Of a stretch of 64,000 nucleotides of DNA, positions 4,852 to 39,930 are shown piece after piece (the stretch's first letter is position 1; each line of letters opens with the position of its first letter). The translations under genes were made by a program, and so were the position numbers. The notes under the pieces were generated by a model. That model was given only the letters and a program-made list of their open reading frames with translations, was not told the origin of the DNA and did no database searches. The stretch is from Pseudomonadota bacterium. GTDB taxonomy: Bacteria > Pseudomonadota > Alphaproteobacteria > Acetobacterales > Acetobacteraceae. The DNA lies in assembly GCA_021818505.1 (NCBI GenBank), contig JAKADX010000003.1, forward strand, positions 1 to 64,000, read 5' to 3'.

Positions 4852-5919
4852 ATGCGGGTGCTGGTGGCGATGTCGGGCGGTGTGGACAGCAGCACGGTGG
4901 CCGGGCTGCTGGCCGAGGCCGGGCACGAGGTGATCGGCGTCACCCTGCAGCTCTACGACCACGGCGCCGCAACCGGGCGCAAGGGCGCCTGTTGCGCCGG
5001 GCAGGACATCCACGACGCCCGCCGCGTCGCCGACCGGCTCGGCATCCCGCACTACGTCATCGACGCCGAGGCGCGGTTCCGTGCCGCCGTGATTGCCGAC
5101 TTCGCCGACAGCTACGCGGGCGGAGAGACCCCGGTGCCCTGCGTGCGCTGCAATCAGACGGTGAAGTTCGCCGACCTGACGGCGCTGGCGCGCGACCTTG
5201 GCTGCGAGCGGCTGGCAACCGGGCACTACGTCCGCCGGATCGACGGCGCCGACGGGCCGGAGCTGCACCGCGCGGTCGATGCCGCGCGCGACCAGAGCTG
5301 GTTCCTGTTCGCCACCACGCCGGCGCAACTGGCGATGAGCCTGTTCCCGCTCGGCACCATGCCGGACAAGGCGGCGGTGCGCGCGGCGGCCGAACGGCTG
5401 GGGCTGCCGGTCGCGGCCAAGCCCGACAGCCAGGACATCTGTTTCGTCCCCGCCGGCAGCTACGCCGACACGGTCGCCAGGCTGCGCCCCGACGCGCTGC
5501 TGCCCGGCGAGATCGTGGCCGAGACCGGCGAGGTGCTGGGTCGCCACGACGGCATCGCGCGCTACACGGTGGGCCAGGCCAAGCGGCTGGGCGCGGCGGC
5601 GCAGGGCGGCGGGGTGCGGCGCGTGGTGGTGGGGCTGGACGCGGCGCGGCGGCGCGTGGTCGTCGGCGCGGCAGGCTCGGGCAGCCGGCATGTCGCCGTG
5701 CGCGAGGTGAACTGGCTCGCCGCGCCGCGCCCCCGCCGCTGCAGCGTGAAGCTGCGCGCGCGCGAGGCGCCTCATCCGGCGGACCTGCTCCCGACCGCCG
5801 AGGGCGCCGAGGTGCGGCTGGACGCGCCGGCACTGGCCGCGCCCGGCCAGGCCTGTGTGTTCTACGATGGCAGCCGTGTGCTTGGCGGCGGTTTCATCCG
5901 CGCCCCCGCTAGCGGCTGA
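4852..5919 (+). CDS. mnmA: tRNA-specific 2-thiouridylase MnmA
   Basis: Adenylates U34 of tRNA-Lys, -Glu and -Gln and replaces the C2 oxygen with sulfur taken from a persulfide chain that starts at IscS. The 355-residue protein has the PP-loop SGGVDSS at residues 8-14. The catalytic pair is C100 in VRCNQTVKF and C197 in SQDICFVP. The tRNA-binding GHY and KPDSQD motifs are present. The start ATG at 4852 gives the standard [10 protein letters not shown] opening. It is 13 bases after fdx, so production is coupled to the desulfurases that supply its sulfur. The tRNA gene 56 bases downstream has its own promoter-like sequence. Confidence 0.95.
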
Positions 5920-5927
5920 TGCGGCGG

Positions 5928-5957
5928 TTGACGCGGCTGCCCGCGCGGCGGTATGTG
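5928..5957 (+). promoter_or_regulatory. Possible promoter of tRNA-Met
   Basis: TTGACG (5928-5933) and TATGTG (5952-5957) are separated by 18 bases. The -35 match is good and the -10 match is only fair. Transcription would start near 5964, about ten bases before the mature tRNA. Confidence 0.4.
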
Positions 5958-5974
5958 CGCGCCCTCGGCCGGAT

Positions 5975-25138: not shown

Positions 25139-27646
25139 ATGAGCCAGGCCCGCGTCCCTTCCTCGGTTGCCAGCAACGGCGCAGTCGCACGCATCGCCCT
25201 TCCCGCCCAGGACGAAGACATCGCCACGCTGCGCCGCGCGGTGATTGCGAAGCTCACCTACGCCGTCGGCAAGGACCCGATCGTCGCCAGCGACCGCGAC
25301 TGGTTCGTCGCCGTCGCGCTGACCGTGCGCGACCGCATCGTCGAACGCTGGTTCCCTTCGACACGCGCGATGTACGCGAAAGGGCGGAAGCGGGTCTATT
25401 ATCTGTCGCTGGAGTTCCTGATCGGCCGGCTGCTGCTCGACAGTCTGAACAATCTCGGCCTGACCGAGCCGATGCGTGCGGCCCTCGGCGAACTCGGCGT
25501 CGATCTCGACCGGCTGCGGCAGATCGAACCGGACGCGGCACTGGGCAACGGCGGCCTGGGGCGGCTCGCGGCGTGCTTCATGGAAAGCATGGCGACCCTC
25601 TCGGTCGCCGCGCACGGCTACGGCATCCGTTACAACCACGGCCTGTTCCAGCAGGTCATCAAGGACGGCTGGCAGCACGAATATCCCGAGAACTGGCTCA
25701 GCTACGGCAACCCGTGGGAGTTCGAGCGGCCCGAGGTGATCTATGCCGTCGGCTTCGGCGGCACGGTGGAGGCGATCACCGGCGCCGACGGTTCGACGCG
25801 GCACATCTGGCACCCCGCCGAGATCGTCGATGCGATGGCGTATGACACCGCCGTGGTCGGCTGGCGTGGCAGGCACGTCAACACGCTCAGGCTGTGGTCG
25901 GCGCGCGCGCCTGATCCCTTGAAGCTCGATGCGTTCAACCGCGGCGATCATGTCGGCGCGCTGGCGTCGCGCGCGCGCGCCAATGCGATCTCGCAGATCC
26001 TCTATCCCAGCGACGAGACCGCGGCGGGGCAGGAGCTGCGGCTGCGGCAGGAGTATTTCTTCACCTGCGCCTCGCTGCAGGACCTGCTGCGCCGGCACAT
26101 GCGCCAGCACAAGGACATCCGCACGCTGCCCGACAAGGCGGCGATCCAGCTGAACGACACGCATCCCGCGATCGCGGTCGCCGAGCTGATGCGCCTGCTG
26201 ATGGACGTGCACGACCTGCCATGGACGGAAGCCTGGCGGATCACGGTCGCCACCCTCTCCTACACCAACCACACGCTGCTGCCCGAGGCACTGGAGAGCT
26301 GGCCGGTGCCGCTGATGGAGCGACTGCTGCCGCGGCACATGCAGATCATCTATCTGCTCAACTGGCTGCACCTGGACAGTGTGCGCGCCGCCGGGCACAG
26401 CGACGACGCGCTGCTGTCCGCGATGTCGCTGATCGACGAGAGCGCCGGGCGGCGGGTGCGCATGGGCGTGCTGGCATTCATCGGATCGCACAAGGTCAAC
26501 GGCGTCTCGGCGCTGCACACCGATCTGATGCGCGAGACGGTATTTCACGACCTGAACAGGATGTTTCCCGACCGCATCACCAACAAAACCAACGGCATCA
26601 CCTTCCGCCGCTGGCTGTTCGAGGCCAATCCCGGCCTCACCTCGCTGCTCACCGAGGTGGTGGGGCCGGCGGTGATGGATGACGCCGAGGTGCTTGCGCA
26701 GCTTGCGCCCCATGCCGACGACACCGCCCTGCACGACCGGCTGATCGCGGTGCGGCGCGCGAACAAGGTGCAGCTGGCCAACCTGATCGCCGAGCGGGTG
26801 CAGATCCAGGTCGATCCCGACGCGATGTTCGACGTGCAGATCAAGCGCATGCACGAATACAAGCGCCAGTTGCTGAACATCCTGGAGACCATCGCGCTGT
26901 ACAGCGCGATGCGGGCGCAGCCGATGCGTGACTGGGTGCCGCGCGTGCGGATCTTCTCCGGCAAGGCGGCGGCGAGCTACCACCGCGCCAAGCTGATCAT
27001 CAAGCTGATCCACGACGTGGGCCGCGTCGTCAACAACGATCCCACGCTGCGCGGCCTGCTCAAGGTCGTGTTTCTGCCGAACTACAATGTCAGCCTGGCG
27101 GAATCGATCATCCCGGCGGCCGACCTGTCGGAGCAGATCTCCACCGCCGGCATGGAAGCCTCCGGCACCGGGAACATGAAGCTGGCGCTGAATGGCGCGC
27201 TGACCATCGGCACGCTCGACGGCGCCAATGTCGAAATCCGCGAGCGCGTCGGCGAGGACAACATCTTCATCTTCGGCATGTCGGCCGAGGAGGTCGAGGC
27301 GCGGCGCCGCACCAACGGCATCGGCGCGGCCGACGCCATCGACGCCTCCCCGATATTGCGCGACGTGCTGGACGAGATCGGCTCCGGCGTGTTTTCGCCC
27401 GAGGAGCCGGACCGTTATCGCGAACTGGTCGATGTGCTGACGCACCACGATCACTTCATGGTATCGGCGGATTTCGACGCCTACGCGCGCACGCAGCGCC
27501 AGGTGGCGGCGCGCTGGCGCGACCGCAAGGCCTGGTGGCGCGCGAGCGTGCTCAACACGGCGCATGTCGGCTGGTTCTCCTCCGACCGCACCATCCGCGA
27601 ATACGCGAGCGAGATCTGGAACGTGCCGGCGGCCACGGACTCATGA
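25139..27646 (+). CDS. glgP: Glycogen/alpha-glucan phosphorylase GlgP
   Basis: Releases glucose-1-phosphate from the non-reducing ends of glycogen. The 835-residue protein shows the family pattern [33 protein letters not shown] and KVNGVSALH, and the PLP-lysine motif [11 protein letters not shown] (K681). The N-terminus lacks an obvious allosteric extension, as in other bacterial enzymes. ATG 25139 follows a weak ribosome-binding stretch (GACAGGAACC). It is the first gene of a five-gene same-strand glycogen set, with 79 bases to glgB. Confidence 0.95.
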
Positions 27647-27670
27647 GCGCCGGCGCGATTCTCACCCCGC

Positions 27671-27694
27671 CCCTCTCCCGCGCGCGGGCGAGGG
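27671..27694. repeat. Intergenic inverted repeat between glgP and glgB
   Basis: CCCTCTCCCGC (27671-27681) faces GCGGGCGAGGG (27684-27694), pairing throughout except one T-C mismatch. Similar CCTCTCCCGC-type hairpins are scattered between genes in many GC-rich proteobacteria. No T-run follows, so it may protect or attenuate the transcript rather than terminate it. Confidence 0.45.
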
Positions 27695-27725
27695 TCATTG
27701 GCACCACGATCTGAGGAGCTGCGCC

Positions 27726-29936
27726 ATGAATACGTCCCCGTGGCAGTTGAGCGACGAGGACGTGGCGCTGATCGCAGAGGCCCGACACCCCGACCCGTTC
27801 GCGGTGCTCGGCCTGCACCGCGCGCCGCCCGGCCTGGCGCCCGGCATGGTGTTGCGGGCCTTCGTGCCCGGTGCCGAGACCGTGAGCGCGATCGACGAGG
27901 CCGGCGCGCCGATCGCGCGGCTGGAACAGCACGGCCAGACGCCTGTTTTCGAGGCGTTCCTGCCCAAGCGGACGGCGCGCTTTGCCTATCGCCTGCACGC
28001 GACGCGCGCGGTTTCACGCTGGACCTTCCGCGATCCCTACGCCTTCGGCCCGGTGCTCGGCGCGCTCGACGAGCACCTGCTGATCGAGGGCACGCACCGG
28101 CGTCTGTATGAGCGGCTCGGCGCGCACCCGATGACGCATGAGGGCGTGGAGGGCGTGCATTTCGCCGTCTGGGCACCGCGGGCACAGCGCGTCTCCGTCG
28201 TCGGCGACTTCAACGCCTGGGACGGCCGGCGGCACGTCATGCGCAAACGCATCGACAGCGGGCTGTGGGAAATCTTCATCCCCGACATCGGCGAAGCGGC
28301 GGTCTATAAGTACGAGATCATCGGCGCGCATGGCGAGCTGCTGCCGCTGAAGGCCGATCCGTTCGGCACCGCCGCCGAACTGCGGCCCTCCACGGCGTCG
28401 GTGGTGGCGCGGACCGACAATTTCCACTGGAACGACGCCGCCTGGATGAACGCGCGGGCACGCAGCGAGGCGCGGCGGGCGCCGATGTCGATCTACGAGG
28501 TGCATCTCGGCTCCTGGCAGCGGCACGCGGACGGGTCATTCTTGAACTGGGACGAAATCGCCGCGCGGCTGGTGCCCTACGCGACCGATCTCGGATTTAC
28601 GCATCTGCAGTTCCTGCCGATCACCGAGCATCCGCTCGACGCCTCCTGGGGCTACCAGCCGATCGGCCTGTTCGCACCGACGCGGCGTTTCGGTGATCCA
28701 GCCGGATTCGCCCGTCTGGTCGATCGCGCGCACGAGGCGGGCCTGGGCGTCATCATCGACTGGGTGCCGGCGCATTTTCCGACCGACGTGCACGGGCTCG
28801 CGCATTTCGACGGCGAGGCACTGTACGAGCATCCGGATCCGCGCCGCGGCTTCCACCCCGACTGGAACACCGCGATCTACGACTACGGCCGGCGGGAAGT
28901 CGCGAACGTGCTGGCGGCGAGCGCGCTCTACTGGCTCGACCGCTTCCACATCGATGGGCTGCGCGTCGATGCCGTTGCCTCGATGCTGTATCTCGACTAC
29001 TCGCGCAAGCCCGGCGAGTGGCTGCCCAATGCCGAAGGCGGCAACGAGAACCGCGACGCGGTCGGCTTCATGCAGCGCACCAACACGCTCGCGTACGCCG
29101 CGCATCCCGGGATCGTCACGATCGCCGAAGAATCGACGGCCTGGCCCGGCGTGTCGCATCCGGTCGATGCCGGCGGCCTCGGCTTCGGCTTCAAGTGGAA
29201 CATGGGCTGGATGCACGACTCGCTCGATTACTTCTCGCGCGATCCGGTGCACCGCCGCTGGCACCACAATGAGCTGACCTTCGGCCTACTCTATGCCTTC
29301 ACCGAGAATTTCGTGCTCCCGCTCAGCCATGATGAGGTCGTTCATGGCAAGGGCTCGATCCTCGGGCGGATGCCGGGCGACGAGTGGCAGCGGTTTGCCA
29401 ATCTGCGCGCCTATTACGGCTTCATGTGGGGCTATCCGGGCAAGAAGCTGCTGTTCATGGGGCAGGAGTTCGGGCAGGGGCGGGAATGGAACTCCGCTGA
29501 CCAGCTTGAATGGTACGTGCTCGACTACGCAGTGCATCGCGGCGTGCGCGACTGCGTGCGCGACCTCAACCGCCTGTATCGCTGTGAGCCTTCGCTGCAC
29601 GCGCGCGACTGCGAGGGCGAGGGATTCCGCTGGATCGTCGTCGATGACGCCGATCAGTCGGTGTTCGCCTGGCTGCGGCTGGGCGGGGAGGGCAGCGCGC
29701 CGGTCGCGGTGGTGAGCAACCTGACGCCGGTGCCGCGGCACAACTACCGCATCGGGCTGCCGCAGAGCGGGCCGTGGCGCGAGATTCTGAACACTGACGC
29801 GGCGCAGTACGGCGGATCGGGAATGGGAAACCTGGGGCGCGTGACGGCCACCGACACGCCCTCGCACGGCTTCCCGGCCTCCGCCGAGGTTTTGCTGCCG
29901 CCGCTTGCCACCATCTATCTGCGGGCGGGGGAATGA
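27726..29936 (+). CDS. glgB: 1,4-alpha-glucan branching enzyme GlgB
   Basis: Creates alpha-1,6 branches in glycogen (736 residues). An N-terminal carbohydrate-binding region precedes the CBM48 domain ([23 protein letters not shown], about residues 140-162). It is followed by the GH13 barrel with the nucleophile D415 in LRVDAVAS, the acid glutamate in IAEEST (about 468-469) and [13 protein letters not shown]. The C-terminal beta domain ends in [10 protein letters not shown]. The start ATG at 27726 gives [12 protein letters not shown], matching the family. Length is normal. Confidence 0.95.
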
Positions 29937-31296: not shown

Positions 31297-32733
31297 ATGG
31301 ACGTTCTCTCGGTCGCCTCGGAGGCGTATCCACTGATCAAGACCGGCGGGCTCGCCGATGTCGCGGGCGCGCTGCCGGGGGCGCTCCGCGCCGAGGGTGT
31401 GGCGATGCGCACGCTGCTGCCCGGCTACCTCGCGATCACCGAGGCGCTGGTTTCGGCGGAAGTCGTGCTGCGCTGGGACGATCTGTTCGGGGGTGCGGCC
31501 CACCTGCTGGCAGCCAGCCTGCACGGGCTCGACCTGTTCGTGCTCGACGCGCCGCATCTCTACGCGCGTCCCGGCAACATCTATCTCGGCCCTGACGGGC
31601 GCGACTGGCCGGACAACGCACTGCGCTTCGCCGCGCTGGCGCGTGTCGGCGCGTGGCTGGCGCAGGGCCGGCTGCCGTCCTGGCGGCCGGCGGTGGTGCA
31701 TGCACATGACTGGCAGGCCGCGCTGCTGCCCGCCTATCTGCACTACGACGGCGGCCGGCCGATCGGCAGCGTGCTGACGGTCCACAACCTTGCCTTTCAG
31801 GGCGTGTTCCCGCCGTCGCTGCTGCCCGCCCTGGGGCTGCCGCCGGAATCCTTCGCGCTCGACGGCGTGGAGTATTTCGGCGCGATCGGCTTCCTCAAGG
31901 CCGGGCTGCTCTTTGCCGACCGCATCACCACTGTCTCGCCGACCTACGCGGCGGAAATCCGCACACCGGCCGACGGCATGGCGCTGGACGGGCTGCTGCG
32001 GGGGCGCGGCGCGGCGGTCAGCGGCATCCTTAATGGCATCGACACCGGGATCTGGAACCCCGCCACGGACCCGCTGTTGCCGGCGCATTACGATGCCACA
32101 CGGCTTGAGGCGCGGGCACGCAACCGGGCAGAGGTGCAGTTCCGCTTCTCGCTCGCCGCCGGCGAAACGGCGCCGCTGTTCGCGGTGGTCAGCCGGCTGA
32201 CCGGGCAGAAGGGCATGGACCTGCTGCTCGCCGCACTGCCGGTGCTGCTGGCCGAGGGCGGGCAACTGGCCGTGCTCGGCGCCGGCGATCCCGCGATCGA
32301 GCGCGGCTTTCGCGACGCCGCCACCGCGCATCCAGGGCGCATCGGCTGCTTCGTCGGCTATGACGAGGGGCTGGCGCATCTGGTGCAGGGCGGCACCGAT
32401 GCGCTGCTGGTCCCGTCGCGTTTCGAGCCGTGTGGACTGACGCAGCTCTGCGCGCTGCGCTACGGCGCGGTGCCGGTGGTGGCGCGCGTCGGTGGCCTGG
32501 CCGACACGGTGATCGACGCCTCGCCGATGGCCCTGGCGGCCGGGGTCGCGACGGGCGTGCAGTTCGCGCCGGTGACCGCGGAGATGCTGGAGGCGGCGAT
32601 CCGCCGCGCCGCCGCGCTGCGCCGACAGCCGCAGACATGGCAACGGATGCAGCGCAACGGAATGGCGACCGACGTGTCGTGGCGCGACCCGGCGCGGCGC
32701 TACGCGGCACTGTACCGGGAACTGGCGGGTTGA
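31297..32733 (+). CDS. glgA: Glycogen synthase GlgA
   Basis: A GT5 glycosyltransferase elongating alpha-1,4-glucan with ADP-glucose. The 478-residue protein carries the ADP-glucose-binding KTGGLADV near the N-terminus (about residues 15-22), [18 protein letters not shown], and the C-terminal catalytic [10 protein letters not shown] motif. It starts 39 bases after glgC and ends five bases before the debranching gene, consistent with cotranscription of the pathway. Confidence 0.96.
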
Positions 32734-32738
32734 ACCTG

Positions 32739-35700
32739 ATGGACGTGACCGAAGGCGCGCCGGAACCGCTCGGCGCCACGCCCGACGCGGCGGGAACCAA
32801 TTTCGCCGTGTTCTCGGCCCATGCGACGGCGATCGAGGTGTGCCTGTTCGACGCCGAGGGCGAGCGCGAGACCGCGCGCGTCGCGCTGCCGGGACGCAGC
32901 GGCGACGTCTGGCACGGCCACATCGCGGGCATCGGGGAAGGCGCGCGCTACGGCCTGCGGGCGCACGGGCCGTACGCGCTGCGGGACGGCCACCGCTTCA
33001 ATCCGCGCAAGCTGCTGCTCGACCCCTACGCGACCACGATCGATCGCAAGCTGCGGCTCGATCCGACCATGTTCAGCGACAACCTGGAGACCGACAGCGC
33101 GCCGCACATGGCCAAGGCGATCGTGGGCGCGCCTGACGGCGGACCGTGCAACACCGTCCCGCTGGTGCCGTGGGATCGCACCGTGATCTACGAGCTGCAC
33201 GTGCGCGGCTTCACGATGCGCCATCCCGACATCCCCGAGCCACTGCGCGGCACCTTCGCGGCACTGGCGCATCCGGCGGCGATCGCGCACCTGACTGGCC
33301 TCGGCATCACCAGCGTCGAGCTGATGCCCGCCGCCGCCTGGATCGAGGAGCGGCACCTGGCTTCGCTCGGGCTGGCGAATGCCTGGGGCTACAACCCGGT
33401 GGGCTTCCTCGCCCCCGATCCGCTGCTGGCGCCGGGCGGCTGGGCGGAGGTGCGGCAGGCGGTCGCAGCGCTGGCGCAGGCGGGGATCGAGACCATCCTC
33501 GACATCGTGCTCAACCACAGCGGCGAGGGCGACGAGCTGGGGCCGACGCTGTCGCTGTGCGGGCTGGACAACGCCACCTACTACCGGCTGCAAGACGACC
33601 GGCGCCTTTATGTGGACGACACCGGCTGCGGCAACACTTTGGCGCTGGACCGGCCGCCGGTCTTGCGGCTGGCGATGGACGCGCTGCGCTGCTGGGCCCG
33701 GCGGGCCGGCGTACACGGCTTCCGCTTCGACCTCGCCACCACGCTCGGGCGGCGCAACGGCGGATTCGATCCGTCCGCGCCGCTGCTCGGGGCGATCGCG
33801 CAGGACCCGGAGCTGCGCCGGCTGAAATTGATCGCCGAGCCGTGGGACCCGGGACCGGACGGCTACCGGGTGGGGCAGTTCCCGCCGGCCTGGGGCGAAT
33901 GGAACGACCATTTCCGCGACGGCGTGCGGCGATTCTGGCGCGGCGACGCGCAGCGCGCCGGCGACCTCGCGACCCGGCTCGCCGGCTCGGCCGACCTGTT
34001 CTGGCCCAAGCGCCTGCCGTCGCGCAGCATCAACTTCGTGGTCGCGCATGACGGGTTCACGCTCGCCGACCTGGTCAGCTACGCCGCCAAGCACAACGAC
34101 GCCAACGGCGAGGGCAACCGCGACGGCAGCGACGACAACATCTCCTGGAACCATGGTGTCGAGGGGCCGAGCACCGACCCGGCAATCGTGGCGGCGCGGC
34201 TGGCCGACCAGCGCGCATTGCTCGCCACGCTGCTGCTCGCGCGCGGCACGCCGATGCTGGCGATGGGGTCGGAGCTGGGCCACACGCAGCGCGGCAACAA
34301 CAATGCCTACGCGCAGGACAACGCCACGACCTGGCTGAACTGGGTGGCCGCCGAGCCGGGGCTGGCGGCGTTCGTCGCGCGTCTGACCGCACTGCGGCAG
34401 GAGCATCCGGCGCTGCGCCGCGACCGCTTCCTGACCGGCGCGGTCGATGCCGGGACGCTGCTGCCCGACGTCGTCTGGCTGGCGGCGAACGGCGCGACGA
34501 TGGCCGACTGGGACCATGCCGAGACGCTGGTCGCGGTGTTCGCCGCCGATGCCGACCGCGTGGCGGTGGTGCTGCACCGGGGCGCGGTGCCGGTGCCCGT
34601 CACGCTGCCGGCGGCCCGCGACGGATTCGCCTGGCAGGTCGGGATCGACAGCCGCACCGCCACGCCGCCGCGGCTGCTGGACGCCAATACACTCACCTGC
34701 CCGGCGCGCGCGGTGCTGGCGGTGGCAGAGGTCGCGGCACCGCAGCGGCGGCGCGGCGGCGTGGATCCGACCGTTCTGGAGCGGTTGGCCGTCGCCGCCG
34801 GCATCGCGCCGGACTGGTGGGACATCGACGGCGCGCGCCACAAGGTCAGCCCCGACACCCAGCGCGCCCTGCTCGCTGCCATGCGGCTTCCGGCCGGCGC
34901 CACCGAGCAGGCGCGCGACTCGCTGCGCCGCTTCGCCGAGGAACAGCACCGCCGCGCCGTGCCGCACGCGCTGGTGGTGCGCGAGGGCACCGCGGCGGAG
35001 TTGATGCTCGCTGTCGAGCCGGCGCGGCATCTGGTGCTGGAGGGTGAGGACGGCGCCCAGGAGCCGATCGCCATCACCGCCGAGGAAGCCGGCGAACGCA
35101 CCTGCGCGGATGGCAGGCGGTGCCCGACCTGGCGGGTCAGGCTGCCGCTGCTGCCGGTCGGTCGCTGGCGGCTGTGGCTGGAGGGCGCGCCTGGGATCGT
35201 CTGCGCGCTGACCGTCGCGCCCGCGACCTGCTACCTGCCGCCGGCGCTGCGCGGGGGCGGACGCCGGTTCGGCGTGGTGGCCCACCTCTATTCGGTGCCG
35301 CGGGCCGGCGACCAGGGCATTGGCGACTTCACCACGCTGGCCAGCCTGGCCGGCGCGGCGGCGCGGGCGGGCGCGGCAGTCGTCGGGCTCAACCCGCTGC
35401 ACGCGCTGTTCCCCGACCAGCGCGAGCGCGCCAGCCCCTATCACCCCTCCGACCGCCGTTTCATCGACCCGATCTATATCGACGTGACCGGCGAGGAGGG
35501 CGGGCTGGACGCGCCGGCCGCCCGCGCGGCGGTGGCGCACCACGCCGCCGCCTTTGCCGAGCTGTCCGCCGCCCGGCTCGTGGATTACCCCGCCGTCTGG
35601 GCCGCCAAGCGGGCGGTGCTGGAGGCCGCCTGCGCGGCTTTCCGCCGCGACGGCGACATGGACCTCTTCCGCGCCTACGGCGGCAGCGCGCTGGAGCGTT

Positions 35701-36776
35701 TCGCCACATTCCAGGCCATCGCCGAGCAACGGCCCGGCGAGGACTGGCATCACTGGCCGGAGGCGCTGCGCGACCCGGAGCGCGCCACGGCCGATCCGGC
35801 ACGGGTGCGGTTCCATATCTGGCTGCAATGGCTCGCTGACCAGCAGCTTGCGGCGGCGGCCGAAGGTTCGGGGCTGGCGATCGGCCTGTATCGCGACCTC
35901 GCGGTGGGCACCGCACCGGATGGCGCGGAGGCCTGGGCGGGCGCGCGGCTGCTCGCCGCCGGCGTGTCGGTCGGCGCGCCGCCCGACCCGTTCTCGGCGC
36001 ACGGGCAGATCTGGCACCTCCCGCCGTTCGACCCGTGGCGGCTGCGCGCCGACGGCTATCGCGGTCTTGCGGGCGTGCTCGGCGCCAACATGCGCCACGC
36101 CGGGGCGCTGCGCATCGACCACGCGATGGGGCTGGCGCGGCTGTTCTGGGTGCCCGAGGGCGCGAGCGGGGCCGACGGAGCCTATGTCGCCTATCCGCGC
36201 GATGACCTGCTCGGTGAGCTGGCTCTAGAGAGCCAACGGGCGCGCTGCCTGATCGTCGGCGAGGACCTCGGCACCGTGCCCGAGGGCTTCCGCGAGGCGC
36301 TCGCCGCGGCCGGGGTGTTCAGCTACCGGGTGCTGTGGTTCGAACGCGACGGCCCCGGCTTCCTGCCGCCCGCCCGCTATCCGGCGCAGGCGGTCGCCTG
36401 CGTCTCGACCCACGACCTGCCGACTTTGGCCGGCTGGCGCGCCGGCGCGGACATCACCGAGCGCGCCGCCCTCGGTCAGATCGACGCGGCCGCGGCGCGC
36501 GCGGAGCGCACCGCCGAGATCGCGGCACTGACGCAGGCGATCGGCGGGCCGCCCGACGCGCCGGCGGTGCATGGCTTCCTTGCACAGTCGCCCTGCGCGC
36601 TCGTGCTGACGCAGGCGGACGACCTCTCCGGCGAGCGCGACGCGCTGAACCTGCCCGGCACCGACCGCGAGCGACCCAATTGGCGGCGCAAGCTCGCCCA
36701 GCCCGTGCCGGCGCTGCTGGAGACGCCGGACGCGCGCGCCGTCCTCGACCGGCTGCGCACCGGTCGGACCGGCTAG
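32739..36776 (+). CDS. Fusion of glycogen debranching enzyme GlgX and 4-alpha-glucanotransferase MalQ
   Basis: A single 1345-residue reading frame holding two complete enzymes. Residues 1 to about 665 are GlgX. They comprise a CBM48-like N-terminus and a GH13 barrel with nucleophile D331 (GFRFDLAT), acid E367 (AEPWDPG) and D438 (VAHDGFTL). Residues about 675-1345 are MalQ (GH77), with DPTVLERLAVAAGI opening the domain and D1127 (LRIDHAMG), E1175 (VGEDLGTVP) and D1226 (STHDLPTL). All catalytic acids are intact, so both activities are expected: debranching limit dextrins and recycling the released maltooligosaccharides. ATG 32739 is used, and a TTG at 32730 overlaps the glgA stop. It is the last gene of the glg operon. 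Confidence 0.93.
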   Translation: MDVTEGAPEPLGATPDAAGTNFAVFSAHATAIEVCLFDAEGERETARVALPGRSGDVWHGHIAGIGEGARYGLRAHGPYALRDGHRFNPRKLLLDPYATTIDRKLRLDPTMFSDNLETDSAPHMAKAIVGAPDGGPCNTVPLVPWDRTVIYELHVRGFTMRHPDIPEPLRGTFAALAHPAAIAHLTGLGITSVELMPAAAWIEERHLASLGLANAWGYNPVGFLAPDPLLAPGGWAEVRQAVAALAQAGIETILDIVLNHSGEGDELGPTLSLCGLDNATYYRLQDDRRLYVDDTGCGNTLALDRPPVLRLAMDALRCWARRAGVHGFRFDLATTLGRRNGGFDPSAPLLGAIAQDPELRRLKLIAEPWDPGPDGYRVGQFPPAWGEWNDHFRDGVRRFWRGDAQRAGDLATRLAGSADLFWPKRLPSRSINFVVAHDGFTLADLVSYAAKHNDANGEGNRDGSDDNISWNHGVEGPSTDPAIVAARLADQRALLATLLLARGTPMLAMGSELGHTQRGNNNAYAQDNATTWLNWVAAEPGLAAFVARLTALRQEHPALRRDRFLTGAVDAGTLLPDVVWLAANGATMADWDHAETLVAVFAADADRVAVVLHRGAVPVPVTLPAARDGFAWQVGIDSRTATPPRLLDANTLTCPARAVLAVAEVAAPQRRRGGVDPTVLERLAVAAGIAPDWWDIDGARHKVSPDTQRALLAAMRLPAGATEQARDSLRRFAEEQHRRAVPHALVVREGTAAELMLAVEPARHLVLEGEDGAQEPIAITAEEAGERTCADGRRCPTWRVRLPLLPVGRWRLWLEGAPGIVCALTVAPATCYLPPALRGGGRRFGVVAHLYSVPRAGDQGIGDFTTLASLAGAAARAGAAVVGLNPLHALFPDQRERASPYHPSDRRFIDPIYIDVTGEEGGLDAPAARAAVAHHAAAFAELSAARLVDYPAVWAAKRAVLEAACAAFRRDGDMDLFRAYGGSALERFATFQAIAEQRPGEDWHHWPEALRDPERATADPARVRFHIWLQWLADQQLAAAAEGSGLAIGLYRDLAVGTAPDGAEAWAGARLLAAGVSVGAPPDPFSAHGQIWHLPPFDPWRLRADGYRGLAGVLGANMRHAGALRIDHAMGLARLFWVPEGASGADGAYVAYPRDDLLGELALESQRARCLIVGEDLGTVPEGFREALAAAGVFSYRVLWFERDGPGFLPPARYPAQAVACVSTHDLPTLAGWRAGADITERAALGQIDAAAARAERTAEIAALTQAIGGPPDAPAVHGFLAQSPCALVLTQADDLSGERDALNLPGTDRERPNWRRKLAQPVPALLETPDARAVLDRLRTGRTG

Positions 36777-36899: not shown

Positions 36900-37265
36900 A
36901 TGATGAGAGTCCTGATTGCCGGTCTGCTGTTGGCCGGCGCCTCCACCGCTGCCCTCGCCGCCGATCCCGCCGCTGGCGAAAAGGTCTTCAAGGCGCAGTG
37001 CGGCATTTGCCATTCGGCCGTGAAGGGCAAGAACGGCATCGGTCCGAGTCTGTTCGGCGTGATCGGTCGGCAGGCCGGCACCGAGCCAGGGTTCCACTTC
37101 ACCGCCGACCACAAGAAGCTCGGTGTCACCTGGGACACCGCGACGATGGAGAAGTACCTCGCGAATCCGCGCGCGATGGTGCCCGACACGTCGATGACCT
37201 ATGCCGGGCTGAAGGACGCCGACAAGCGCGCCGACGTCGTCGCGTATCTCGCAACACTGCATTGA
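36900..37265 (+). CDS. Small class I cytochrome c, periplasmic
   Basis: A 121-residue soluble cytochrome. A cleavable signal peptide (residues 1-20, ending AALA) precedes a CxxCH heme site C34-C37-H38 (CGICH). The axial methionine is probably in DTSMTYAG, and NGIGPSLFGVIGR is typical of the cytochrome c2/c550 group. AAGGGAG just upstream supports ATG 36900 (the next codon is also ATG). It is followed by a hairpin and then the Cyc2-like cytochrome-porin gene 95 bases downstream, so it is a natural periplasmic electron partner for that protein. Confidence 0.9.
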   Translation: MMRVLIAGLLLAGASTAALAADPAAGEKVFKAQCGICHSAVKGKNGIGPSLFGVIGRQAGTEPGFHFTADHKKLGVTWDTATMEKYLANPRAMVPDTSMTYAGLKDADKRADVVAYLATLH

Positions 37266-37274
37266 ATTTTAGTG

Positions 37275-37312
37275 TCACGGCGGCGGATTGATCCTGATCA
37301 ACGCCGCCGTGA
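37275..37312 (+). terminator. Hairpin after the cytochrome c gene
   Basis: TCACGGCGGCG (37275-37285) and CGCCGCCGTGA (37302-37312) form a perfect 11-base stem. The loop itself contains the palindrome TTGATCCTGATCAA, which can continue the stem. The downstream sequence is only moderately T-rich (CATTCTT...CTTTCT), so termination may be partial, allowing some readthrough into the next gene. Confidence 0.55.
37288..37301. promoter_or_regulatory. FNR/FixK/Anr-type binding site
   Basis: TTGAT-CCTG-ATCAA is an exact match to the symmetric consensus TTGAT-N4-ATCAA of FNR/FixK/Anr regulators. Its centre is 66 bases upstream of the ATG of the Cyc2-like gene, allowing a class II promoter with a start near 37336. 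No clear -10 is seen there. It coincides with the loop of a transcription-terminator-like hairpin, so it could also be incidental. Confidence 0.5.
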
Positions 37313-37360
37313 GCATTCTTGCCCTTTCTGCTCCCGTGAACGGCATGAAAGGAGTTAATC

Positions 37361-38722
37361 ATGCGGAGCGTTCGAATGCGCCTGCTGGGGGCGCTGGCAG
37401 TGGGGCTGGTCTCACTGCTGTCCTTGGTGAAACCGGCAGAGGCGGTGCCGAGTTTCGCGTCCCAGACTGGTCAACCCTGTAGCGCCTGTCACATCGGCTC
37501 GTTCGGTCCGTACCTCACGCCGTTCGGCCGCGCCTTCAAACTCAGCGGTTACACGCTGGGCGGCGGCGACGGGCTGGCGTCCGAAATCCCGCTTTCGGGA
37601 ATGGTGATCACGTCGTTCACCCACACCGCCAGCGCGCAGCCCTCGCCGCCAGCGCAGGGTTTCTATGACAACAACAACCCCGCCCTTGACCAGATCAGCC
37701 TGTTCCTGGCTGGACGCGTCAACGACTACGTTGGCGGCTTCGTGCAGGGCACGTACGACGGCGTGGGCCGCGCGTTCCTGTGGGACAACACCGACGTCCG
37801 CGTGTCCACCCCGATCAACCTGCCGAGCGACACCAATTTGCGGCTCGGTGTGTCGTTCAACAACGGCCCGACCGTGCAGGACCCGTACAACACCACCTAT
37901 GCGTGGGGCTATCCGTTCGCTTCCTCGGCGCTGGCGCCAACCCCCACGGCCGGTCCGATCATCGGCGCGCTGATCGGCAACACGCTGGGCATGACCGTCA
38001 ACGCCTGGTACGACAACTCCCTCTACGTCGAAATCGGTGCCTACGGCACGCAGAGTCCGGCGCTCGCCAAGATGCTGGGTCAGTACACGTATCCCGGCAC
38101 ATCGGTCGGGCCGATGCCCTATGCCCGTGTCGCGTATGAATGGGACTGGTCCGGACAGGCGGCCGAGGTCGGCGGACTGATCTTCAACGCCCGACTGCAG
38201 CCGGGTGGCATACCGGGGTTCGGCACTGACGGCTACACCGACATGGCGATCGACGGCACCTACCAGTTCATCGGCGATGGCACGAACACCGTCTCGATCC
38301 TCGGCATCTTCACGCACGAGATCCAGCACCTCAACTCATCCGTGGCGCAGGGCCTCGCGGGGACCACGAACGGCTACCTGAACCAGTTCACCGCCACCGC
38401 CACGTACTTCTACGAGAAGACCTATGGCATCAACTTCTCGATCCAGAAGACCAGCGGTTCGTCCGACGCGGTGCTCTATGCGCCGGCCCCGCTCACCGGC
38501 AGCAACAACGGCAGCCCGAACAGCCTGGGCCTGATCACCGAGCTTGACTGGGTGCCGTTCGGCAAGAACGACTCCTGGGCCCAACCGTTCGTCAACATGA
38601 AGTTCGGCTTGCAGTACGCGGTGTATCCGCAGTTCAACGGCGGCGGGAGCAACTATGATGGCTTCGGTCGGTCAGCGGGCGCGAACAACACGCTCTACGC
38701 CTTCGCCTGGCTGGCGTTCTGA
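37361..38722 (+). CDS. Cyc2-like fused monoheme cytochrome c / outer-membrane beta-barrel
   Basis: A 453-residue protein. The signal peptide (to about residue 28) is followed at once by a single heme site C40-C43-H44 in a VPSFASQTG-x-x-CSACH context. This leads into FGPYLTPFGRAFKLSGYTLGG. The rest alternates polar and hydrophobic residues with many Asn, Gly and aromatic residues and ends in AWLAF, as outer-membrane barrels do. A short N-terminal heme region plus a ~16-strand barrel is the architecture of Cyc2, the iron-oxidising outer-membrane cytochrome of Acidithiobacillus and others. The heme-region wording also matches that family. AGGAG at 37350-37354 fixes ATG 37361. The family call is strong for architecture and tentative for function. 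Confidence 0.75.
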   Translation: MRSVRMRLLGALAVGLVSLLSLVKPAEAVPSFASQTGQPCSACHIGSFGPYLTPFGRAFKLSGYTLGGGDGLASEIPLSGMVITSFTHTASAQPSPPAQGFYDNNNPALDQISLFLAGRVNDYVGGFVQGTYDGVGRAFLWDNTDVRVSTPINLPSDTNLRLGVSFNNGPTVQDPYNTTYAWGYPFASSALAPTPTAGPIIGALIGNTLGMTVNAWYDNSLYVEIGAYGTQSPALAKMLGQYTYPGTSVGPMPYARVAYEWDWSGQAAEVGGLIFNARLQPGGIPGFGTDGYTDMAIDGTYQFIGDGTNTVSILGIFTHEIQHLNSSVAQGLAGTTNGYLNQFTATATYFYEKTYGINFSIQKTSGSSDAVLYAPAPLTGSNNGSPNSLGLITELDWVPFGKNDSWAQPFVNMKFGLQYAVYPQFNGGGSNYDGFGRSAGANNTLYAFAWLAF

Positions 38723-38740
38723 GCCCGGGGGTACACGCAC

Positions 38741-39196
38741 ATGACACGCAGGAGATGGCTACTGACGACGGCCGTTCTGCTCGGACTGGCATTGTCGGCG
38801 GGCGGCGCCCGCGCCGACGGGTCGGAACAGGCGACCAAGGCCCGCGCGATGCTGGACCGCGTGGTGGCGGCGCTGAAGGTCGATGAGCACGCGGCGCTCG
38901 AGTCCTTCACCAAGGGCACCAACGGGTTCGCGGACGGCGACATCTATCCGTTCTGCGCCCGCGCGCGCAGCGGCTGGGTGGTGGCGCATCCGTCGCGGCT
39001 CGGTGAGAACCTCGCCACGGTGTCCGACATGTACGGCAAGCTGTTCGGCAAGGAGATCCTCAACACCGCTGTCGTCGGCGAGGTGAAGGAAATCCACTAC
39101 ATGTGGCCGAAGCCCGGCCACAAAACGCCGGAGCGCAAGGACACGTACTACACGAAGGTCGATCACTTGGTCTGCGGCGTCGGCTACTACCCGTAG
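38741..39196 (+). CDS. Secreted single-cache-domain protein
   Basis: A 151-residue protein with a twin-arginine-like start (MTRRRWLLTTAVLLGLALS) and a cleavage site near ARADG. The mature part (KARAMLDRVVAALK ... DGDIYPFCARARSGWVVAHP ... GKEIL) reads like a single cache (sCache_2-type) ligand-binding domain. The W-x-K-x-Y-type region is YYTKVDHLVCGVGYYP. There is no membrane segment beyond the signal, so it is a free periplasmic protein. It follows the Cyc2-like gene by 18 bases and is probably cotranscribed. Its role could be sensing or carrying a small molecule for the cytochrome system. Confidence 0.8.
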   Translation: MTRRRWLLTTAVLLGLALSAGGARADGSEQATKARAMLDRVVAALKVDEHAALESFTKGTNGFADGDIYPFCARARSGWVVAHPSRLGENLATVSDMYGKLFGKEILNTAVVGEVKEIHYMWPKPGHKTPERKDTYYTKVDHLVCGVGYYP

Positions 39197-39223
39197 CCGA
39201 CACCGCCCGGCCTGGCCGGCATC

Positions 39224-39266
39224 ACGGCCGCGACGGATGCGCAGGCATCGTCGCGGCCGTTGTTTT
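39224..39266. terminator. Rho-independent terminator
   Basis: ACGGCCGCGACG (39224-39235) and CGTCGCGGCCGT (39249-39260) form a perfect 12-base stem around a 13-base loop, followed by TGTTTT. It closes the cytochrome/cache unit and lies between convergent genes, so it may also serve the lipoprotein gene arriving from the other side. Confidence 0.8.
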
Positions 39267-39285
39267 GCCTGCGGAAGACGCTCCG

Positions 39286-39930
39286 CTAGGATTTTTCCGG
39301 CGTACCGAGATTCTGCTGCTCCACCGGCGGCGGCGGCGGTGCGGCCGGCGTCGTGGATTGCAGCCAGTCGCCGAGCGAGTGGCGGACCTGGTACTCGAAC
39401 TCGACATTCATGTCGCGCATCGTCGCCTTCACCAGATCATAGAGCGCCTGCCGCACCGCCTCCGGGGCATAGTTGCTGATGGTGCGCGTGCGCGCGACCT
39501 TGGCCTCGGCATAGCCCGAGCGGGTGCCGTCGGCGTTGTGGATGTCCATGTGAACGGCGAAGCTCGCCTCGAACCGGTCGGCGACACGCGTCAGCGACGC
39601 GTCGTCGATGGTGACGGTTGCCTGCCCCTGGCTGCCACCGGGGATCAGCCGGTCCTGCACCATGCGGCGCAGCGCATCGACCGGCTGCACGGGCGACTGG
39701 TTCTCGACATGCTCGCCATTCGCGACCGGCTGCGGCGTCCAGGCCACGTCTTCGGCGATATTGGCCACATCGAGCTTGATCTTGGTCAGGTAGCCGAAGG
39801 TGAGCGGCGGATAGGTCTTCGGCGGCGGCGGCTCCACGCAGCCCGCCAGCAGCGCGGGCAACGCACCGCCCGCCACCGCGAGCACGGCGCGGCGGGTCAG
39901 GGGGCAAGGCGGGGCGACATGGGTGGTCAT
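39286..39930 (-). CDS. Putative lipoprotein of unknown function
   Basis: A 214-residue protein with an Arg-containing signal sequence and lipobox PALLAGC (cysteine near residue 30), followed by a Pro-rich linker (VEPPPPKTYPP). The folded part has TIDDASLTRVADRFEASFAV and ends in another Pro/Gln-rich tail. I recognise no named domain, but the strand-helix pattern suggests a small periplasmic alpha/beta domain. ATG 39930 is chosen because it gives a proper signal peptide, whereas the upstream ATG at 39966 does not. It is convergent with the cache gene across a terminator. Confidence 0.75.
   Translation of the reverse strand: MTTHVAPPCPLTRRAVLAVAGGALPALLAGCVEPPPPKTYPPLTFGYLTKIKLDVANIAEDVAWTPQPVANGEHVENQSPVQPVDALRRMVQDRLIPGGSQGQATVTIDDASLTRVADRFEASFAVHMDIHNADGTRSGYAEAKVARTRTISNYAPEAVRQALYDLVKATMRDMNVEFEYQVRHSLGDWLQSTTPAAPPPPPVEQQNLGTPEKS

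Follow-up and report, generated by a model that had tools for sequence, protein, structure and literature searches.

Does the iron oxidation for which Cyc2 serves as a marker extend to proteins that keep the Cyc2 design and have lost part of the Cyc2 sequence motif? This question is raised by a small gene cluster of an Acetobacteraceae bacterium (GenBank assembly GCA_021818505.1, contig JAKADX010000003.1), of which we analyzed the first 64,000 nucleotides, hereafter called the window. The cluster encodes a small cytochrome c, a fused cytochrome-porin, and a secreted cache-domain protein (Table 1). We conclude that the first two probably work as a pair, in which an outer membrane Cyc2-type cytochrome-porin takes electrons from Fe(II) or a small reductant, with a cytochrome c2 as relay. 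The original prediction, made from the letters of the window alone, had named these three genes and proposed a Cyc2 design with the small cytochrome as periplasmic relay. The genes are indeed where it placed them, the cytochrome belonging to PF00034 and the cache protein, which starts 18 bases past the porin stop codon, to PF17200. The single CxxCH (C40-H44) and the barrel-like remainder with an aromatic last residue hold as well, and structure prediction returns a barrel.

The cytochrome-porin has a hydrophobic, signal-like N-terminus (read by eye), then the segment AVPSFASQTGQPCSACHIGSFGPYLTPFGRAFKLSGYTL, and then a long remainder that ends, again by eye, in Phe. Like Cyc2, it carries a single N-terminal CxxCH followed by PxL, and at 453 amino acids it exceeds the minimum length of 365. 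The AlphaFold2 model, built on an alignment with 77 relatives, has a mean predicted local distance difference test score (pLDDT) of 89.0 and a predicted template modeling score of 0.86; short helices around the heme site precede a barrel of 16 strands. In a Foldseek search the leading rows are porins at ∼10 to 14% identity, with Vibrio OmpT and Omp32 ranked first and second. We take 16 to be the strand number of these best structural matches; the list also includes AlgE, Campylobacter MOMP, and Wzi, presumably barrels with other strand numbers. VIA-align gives Z scores up to 21.8, including 20.6 for the phosphate porin OprP; it is with the OprP family that Keffer et al. compared Cyc2 (PMC8406198). 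With a threshold of E 0.1 the protein had no match in Pfam or NCBIfam, and a sequence search of the PDB gave 0 matches. Among 112 aligned rows, all selected for holding CxxCH, C40, C43, and H44 are invariant. Met81, which we considered as a distal heme ligand, occurs in most rows of the window's group (45 of 49) and in 21 of the 38 rows of a second group (FPEL) but is not common in the other two groups. From this architecture we infer that the protein attaches a heme and sits in the outer membrane.

Relatives were collected as pattern-matched stretches in a collection of genome contigs, using two scan patterns derived from a profile; one pattern spells out the CxxCH-to-PxL stretch, and neither fixes the Arg position discussed below. 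Because 503 of the 568 stretches encode relatives, the porin gene is no chance frame; 80 loci were kept. A match to the porin is present in 10 of 40 searched genomes, the window's own included (one match is partial), and profile searches found matches in 89 of 398 genomes of the phylum and in 63 of 369 in a second draw from the class. The relatives include many Acetobacteraceae or Rhodospirillales, along with Caulobacteraceae, Rhodanobacteraceae, Thauera, Paucibacter, Nitrospirillum, Novimethylophilus, and one metagenome-assembled genome (MAG) of the Acidobacteriota. Many of the 89 phylum matches fall in one family of small genomes with two kinds of copies. We infer that these genomes are Zetaproteobacteria, a class in which Cyc2 Clusters 1 and 3 have been described (McAllister et al., PMC7029218).

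How is the protein related to known Cyc2? One genome (G704) carries a cytochrome-porin gene in a setting close to the rus operon order described in PMC10654088, but without cyc1: cyc2 is followed by a blue-copper-like frame, COX2, COX1, further frames, and a rusticyanin-like gene ∼7 kb from the cytochrome-porin (frames with no Pfam match were named by eye). The rusticyanin-like gene scores 137.2 bits (1.0e-39) against a curated cut-off of 146.7; in the rusticyanin search of 63 genomes, none exceeded this cut-off and 18 had a match at E 0.001. BLASTP aligns the window protein with the G704 Cyc2 over its full length at 30% identity (E 7e-55), whereas the Zetaproteobacteria-like copy aligns mainly in an N-terminal stretch of 115 columns at 34% identity. 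This full-length kinship with a Cyc2 from a rus-type operon means that the Cyc2-like reading is right in both design and kinship.

The trees agree with these alignments. In a 51-row tree, a branch with 100/100 support parts 42 rows, among them the window protein and the G704 Cyc2, from nine Zetaproteobacteria-like rows; in a 61-row tree, to which a third group was added and which lacks the G704 Cyc2, superclade support is 100/99. The rows of both trees were picked by hand and exclude three long ones (L176, L177, and L198), and the 51-row tree also leaves out the KY group. A quick tree of 112 rows, likewise picked by hand and drawing on 34 of the 80 loci, agrees with both. Support for the window's own group is 96/90 in the 61-row tree and 68/91 (not starred) in the 51-row tree. 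The grouping with the rus-type-operon Cyc2 against the Zetaproteobacteria-like rows suggests a place in Cluster 2, and nothing in the tree assigns the protein to some other porin family in which the heme site has decayed. Separately, the copy in the Acidobacteriota MAG (Terriglobia, L094) is closest to one of the proteobacterial MAG FK3.bin79 (L088), which reflects either transfer between phyla or wrong binning.

The clearest departure from Cyc2 lies just before the heme site. Keffer et al. describe AxPxFAR[Q/K][T/Y] as a motif unique to Cyc2, and the sequences of their tree were screened for PxFAR[Q/K][T/Y] (PMC8406198). The window protein fits six of the seven specified positions and has Ser34 in place of the Arg, so we do not file it as a strict Cyc2; on present evidence it is a variant branch that works like Cyc2. 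The Arg is found in 21 of 78 near relatives (two of the 80 loci were dropped, one truncated and one with an N) and in 80 of 83 reference rows; some of these references are partial frames or belong to the window's own pattern group, and one gene appears among them twice (L166 = L172). It is scarcest close to the window, with 2 of 41 in loci L023-L064 compared to 19 of 37 in L065-L102. Four row groups (the window's, FPEL, CHF, and KY) were defined by sequence patterns within the 112 rows; the window's group has the Arg in 25 of its 49 rows, and not one of the 54 FPEL and CHF rows lacks it, with the KY group uninformative since its pattern itself contains Arg, and with one row labeled FPEL (L140) placed inside the window's group. 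The spacing from CxxCH to PxL is 5 residues after H44 in the window protein and in all 78 near relatives, partly through selection; in the 83 references it is 3 (38 rows), 4 (25), or 5 (17), with 3 rows in which it was not found. With 57 of the 78 near relatives lacking the Arg, the published motif screen, as worded, would drop most of our sample.

The second main line of evidence is the gene directly upstream. The small protein has a Cytochrom_C domain with CxxCH, as well as a signal peptide and a Met ligand read by eye, and its closest PDB match is the cytochrome c2 1hro (E 7.5e-28). We surveyed adjacency by tblastn, with the window cytochrome and four porin-side cytochromes (L077, L080, L071, and L092) as queries; these four loci match by construction. 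Of the 73 loci with both flanks present (7 of the 80 were excluded for a flank shorter than 800 bp), 53 have a class I cytochrome c gene no more than 800 bp from the porin, where ∼1.3 would be expected. This expectation is our own arithmetic (7 / 647,593 x 1,600 x 73), based on 7 matches to the same cytochromes in 647,593 bp elsewhere. Earlier frame-based counts of 36/73 and 47/73 had missed genes whose open frame overlaps the porin; over all loci, short flanks included, the count is 56 of 80. The cytochrome gene is upstream in 27 loci, downstream in 27, inverted in 1, and on both sides in 1. The window's upstream order occurs in 26 of the 42 loci L023-L064, whereas 23 of the 38 loci L065-L102 have the cytochrome gene downstream. 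The Arg is absent in 25 of 27 loci with an upstream cytochrome gene, compared to 11 of 26 with a downstream one, and both traits follow phylogeny. Given its c2 type and this adjacency, the small cytochrome is probably a periplasmic relay, in line with the original prediction.

Two further copies show related arrangements. In a genome of the window's genus (G002), a cytochrome-porin of 45 to 48% identity (L007) has class I cytochrome c genes on both flanks. Another copy (L011/L012, G008:C391:8505-9625) is split between frames, with one TGA, and has a class I cytochrome c downstream.

What might the organism do with such a pair? Its genome encodes a form I-like cbbL (form assigned by eye) with a cbbS-like and an epimerase-like frame, i.e., ribulose-1,5-bisphosphate carboxylase/oxygenase (RuBisCO), together with two heme-copper oxidase genes (PF00115). 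Neither SoxB nor a photosynthetic reaction center was found in this genome. RuBisCO and the oxidases, with no reaction center and no SoxB, fit chemolithotrophic Fe(II) oxidation but do not prove it; autotrophy on an inorganic donor is plausible, with Fe(II) the best candidate, though not a proven one. Among five genomes of the window's genus, a reaction center is present in three (G001-G003) and RuBisCO in three (G000, G002, and, in part, G003).

Altogether, these observations are best explained by the following scheme. After export by its signal peptide, the protein would form a 16-strand barrel in the outer membrane, with a short monoheme c domain facing the periplasm. The electron donor, dissolved Fe(II) or some other small reductant, would pass into the barrel and reduce the heme, which would hand the electron to the periplasmic cytochrome c2 encoded directly upstream. 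The cytochrome c2 would in turn feed a cytochrome oxidase and perhaps, in phototrophic congeners, the reaction center.

Table 1. Features of the cytochrome-porin locus, numbered from the first letter of the window
Feature	Coordinates	Strand	Basis
Class I (cytochrome c2-type) monoheme cytochrome c, 121 amino acids	36900..37265	+	PF00034 E 1.3e-9; 1hro
Hairpin between cytochrome and porin genes, 11-bp perfect arms, 16 nt apart	37275..37312	+	Fold
Cyc2-type fused cytochrome-porin, 453 amino acids	37361..38722	+	Frame, AlphaFold2 model, structural matches, BLASTP, tree
Motif AVPSFASQT, residues 28-36, Arg of AxPxFAR[Q/K][T/Y] replaced by Ser34	37442..37468	+	Sequence
Putative heme c site CSACH (C40-H44), then P50-Y51-L52	37478..37492	+	Sequence
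Predicted 16-stranded outer membrane barrel, residues 78-452	37592..38716	+	AlphaFold2; Foldseek and VIA-align porin matches
Secreted stand-alone sCache_2 protein, 151 amino acids	38741..39196	+	PF17200, 30.8 bits vs cut-off 25
Strong hairpin after cache gene, 12-bp perfect arms, then TTGTTTT; probable terminator	39224..39260	+	Fold

Among known systems, one that closely resembles the pair is Cyc2 of the Cluster 2 type (Acidithiobacillus ferrooxidans, rus-type operons). The two share one N-terminal CxxCH, the AxPxFA and PxL elements, a predicted 16-strand barrel, a length above 365 amino acids, and an alignment over the full length, the latter made with the G704 copy standing in for A. ferrooxidans Cyc2. 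They differ in the Ser for Arg in AxPxFAR and in the CxxCH-PxL gap of 5 residues, compared to 3 or 4 in 63 of the 83 references. The partner also differs: the window neighbor is of the cytochrome c2 type, whereas the one described for rus operons, Cyc1, is a cytochrome c4 (PMC10654088). With Zetaproteobacteria Cyc2 (Cluster 1, Cyc2PV-1 type; represented here by the Zetaproteobacteria-like rows), the protein shares its N-terminal cytochrome segment and the published architecture, but the barrel barely aligns and the two form separate groups in the trees. The MtrAB, PioAB, and MtoAB systems likewise combine a heme protein with an outer membrane barrel for electron transfer across the outer membrane. 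There, however, a separate decaheme cytochrome is held in a 26-strand barrel (PMC8406198), while the window protein has one fused heme site and 16 predicted strands, for which we rejected an Mtr/Pio-type complex.

Cyc2 homologs have been noted in the Acetobacteraceae before. Their genes are described as often adjoining a mono- or diheme cytochrome c gene, and the proteins have been proposed to deliver electrons from iron to c-type cytochromes (Degli Esposti et al. 2023, PMC10715153); the window protein, compared through these descriptions, probably belongs to the same family. A similarity network joins Acidisphaera, Acidiphilium, and Acidocella with Acidithiobacillus Cyc2 (PMC10654088), and a Cyc2-like gene is reported from an acid-mine Acidocella MAG (PMC8357290). 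We found nothing decisive in PMC12285243 and PMC12442345. What goes beyond this earlier work is the Arg-less branch and its pairing with cytochrome c2.

Several points weigh against the reading of the pair as an Fe(II)-oxidizing system. The branch holds organisms that are not, to our knowledge, iron oxidizers, such as Dyella, Paucibacter, and Nitrospirillum. The window protein has Ser in place of the motif Arg, which 57 of 78 near relatives also lack, so heme tuning or substrate may differ. Twenty of the 73 loci have no class I cytochrome c inside 800 bp. No rus operon stands beside the porin gene; in the window's genome, a high-potential iron-sulfur protein was not found, and rusticyanin was not searched for. 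PF00115 does not separate cytochrome c oxidases from quinol oxidases, and NiFe-hydrogenase-like hits of unspecified type in the same genome make H2 another possible donor for autotrophy. A hairpin separates the cytochrome gene from the porin gene (37262-37330 folds at -27.6 kcal/mol, z -4.1), so that a single transcript for the genes is not certain. It is possibly a partial terminator or processing site; a partial terminator would make the amounts of cytochrome and porin unequal. Finally, Keffer et al. caution that large parts of Clusters 2 and 3 are only distantly related to the proteins that have been tested, and that other functions of Cyc2 are possible (PMC8406198).

In one alternative, the same pair operates with an outside partner other than Fe(II), e.g., reduced humics or phenols, another metal, or an acceptor to which electrons are exported. 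The loss of the Arg, which reaches 39 of the 41 nearest loci (L023-L064), would fit such a change of partner, as would the varied taxa of the relatives and the additional Cyc2 functions for which PMC8406198 allows. So would the cytochrome b561 gene found within 1 kb of the porin in 11 of the 80 loci, which suggests contact with the quinone pool; all 11 are in L065-L102, however, and none of the 42 loci L023-L064 has a b561 homolog at this distance. The full-length kinship with the rus-type-operon Cyc2 and the autotrophy genes of the window's genome also speak for Fe(II), and we regard a different partner as rather unlikely. The b561 loci themselves (L066, L071, L077, L079, L080, L084, L093, L096, L097, L099, and L102) have the b561 gene directly upstream of the porin, in L096 on the other strand, and thus the order b561, cytochrome-porin, and cytochrome c where a downstream cytochrome is present. 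In L066 the b561 gene is 5302-5964 (PF01292). Such a neighbor could connect the barrel to the quinone pool.

Is the cache protein part of the system? It consists of a signal-like N-terminus and a sensor domain, and lacks the membrane anchor and cytoplasmic output domain that an sCache_2 chemoreceptor or kinase would have on the same chain. Its predicted structure (pLDDT 86.9, with 4 sequences in the alignment) matches sensor domains of chemoreceptors, some of which bind carboxylates or urea. A cache homolog stands beside the porin in 3 of the 80 loci, in the window's order and strand in L031 and L034 and convergently in L024, a few loci ending early at contig ends. When 30 of the 80 genomes were searched whole, 7 had a cache homolog at E 1e-5, adjacent in 3 and on other contigs in 4; a search of 60 relatives at E 0.001 found one in 6 genomes. 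The genome with the closest porin found (G003, 71%) has its cache gene elsewhere. Thus, the conservation of all three genes, which the original prediction had proposed to survey, is largely not borne out, and we rejected a conserved trio. The trio had been suggested as a possible undescribed arrangement; its pair of cytochrome and Cyc2 has already been reported for Acetobacteraceae (PMC10715153), and the cache gene is only an occasional neighbor. Among open-license papers, we found none that connects a cache protein with Cyc2 or with a cytochrome operon, and the word "cache" is absent from the main texts of PMC10715153, PMC8406198, and PMC10654088.

The cache protein might still be a functional third component in the periplasm that binds a carboxylate or iron chelate and either helps ligands or Fe(III) leave the pore or reports them. 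The sensor-type fold is compatible with such a role, and according to Keffer et al. iron might be accompanied through the pore by a chaperone or ligand (PMC8406198). Wherever one of the 80 loci has a cache homolog, in three cases, it directly adjoins the porin, and L031 and L034, in addition to sharing the window's order and strand, belong in the 61-row tree to a subclade with Acidisphaera, apart from the three-row clade of the window. However, no cache gene was found beside the porin in the other 77 loci, the L024 copy is convergent, 4 of the 7 genomes that carry both genes have them on different contigs, and 23 of the 30 porin-bearing genomes searched gave no cache homolog at E 1e-5. With these counts, the role of a third component is quite improbable. 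Most likely, the cache protein binds a ligand in the periplasm independently of the pair, beside which it is encoded only in some lineages. An ordinary solute porin with a vestigial or accidental CxxCH would explain the absence of a Pfam family and the identity of only ∼6 to 14% to the listed solved porins, but it is extremely improbable given the class I cytochrome c adjacent in 53 of 73 loci and the conserved residues surrounding CxxCH (A28 and F59 in 112/112 rows chosen for CxxCH; P30, P50, L52, and G56 in 109 to 111), on which grounds a vestigial heme site was rejected.

The surroundings of the three genes add a few details. The strong terminator proposed after the cache gene is sound as a strong hairpin (fold of 39205-39280: -43.6 kcal/mol, z -3.5), but its T-run is weak, and a terminator scan picked out not this hairpin but a small stem at 39271-39286, one of 2 sites in the region, where 1.3 are expected by chance. 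A sigma-70 promoter scan of the region gave 0 sites. Upstream of the cytochrome gene, a 1,346-amino-acid frame (32736-36773, + strand) starts with an isoamylase-type CBM_48 domain and ends with a GH77 4-alpha-glucanotransferase. This GlgX/MalQ-like fusion adjoins branching-enzyme-like (27564-29936) and glycogen-synthase-like (31297-32733) genes.

Returning to the Cyc2-type pair, what does it mean for the family? One could imagine that a widespread Arg-less branch has been retuned to another donor or potential and serves cytochrome c2, for respiration or, in sister species, for the photosynthetic reaction center, and that a few lineages have recruited a secreted cache protein to help with ligands or iron chelates, although we consider this combination unlikely. 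Cyc2 serves as a marker of iron oxidation, and the Arg-less relatives escape the motif screen yet keep the heme site and, often, the cytochrome partner. The branch raises the question of whether many Alphaproteobacteria, Acetobacteraceae among them, also oxidize iron by means of Cyc2. If they do, the phototrophs among them might feed their reaction center from iron.

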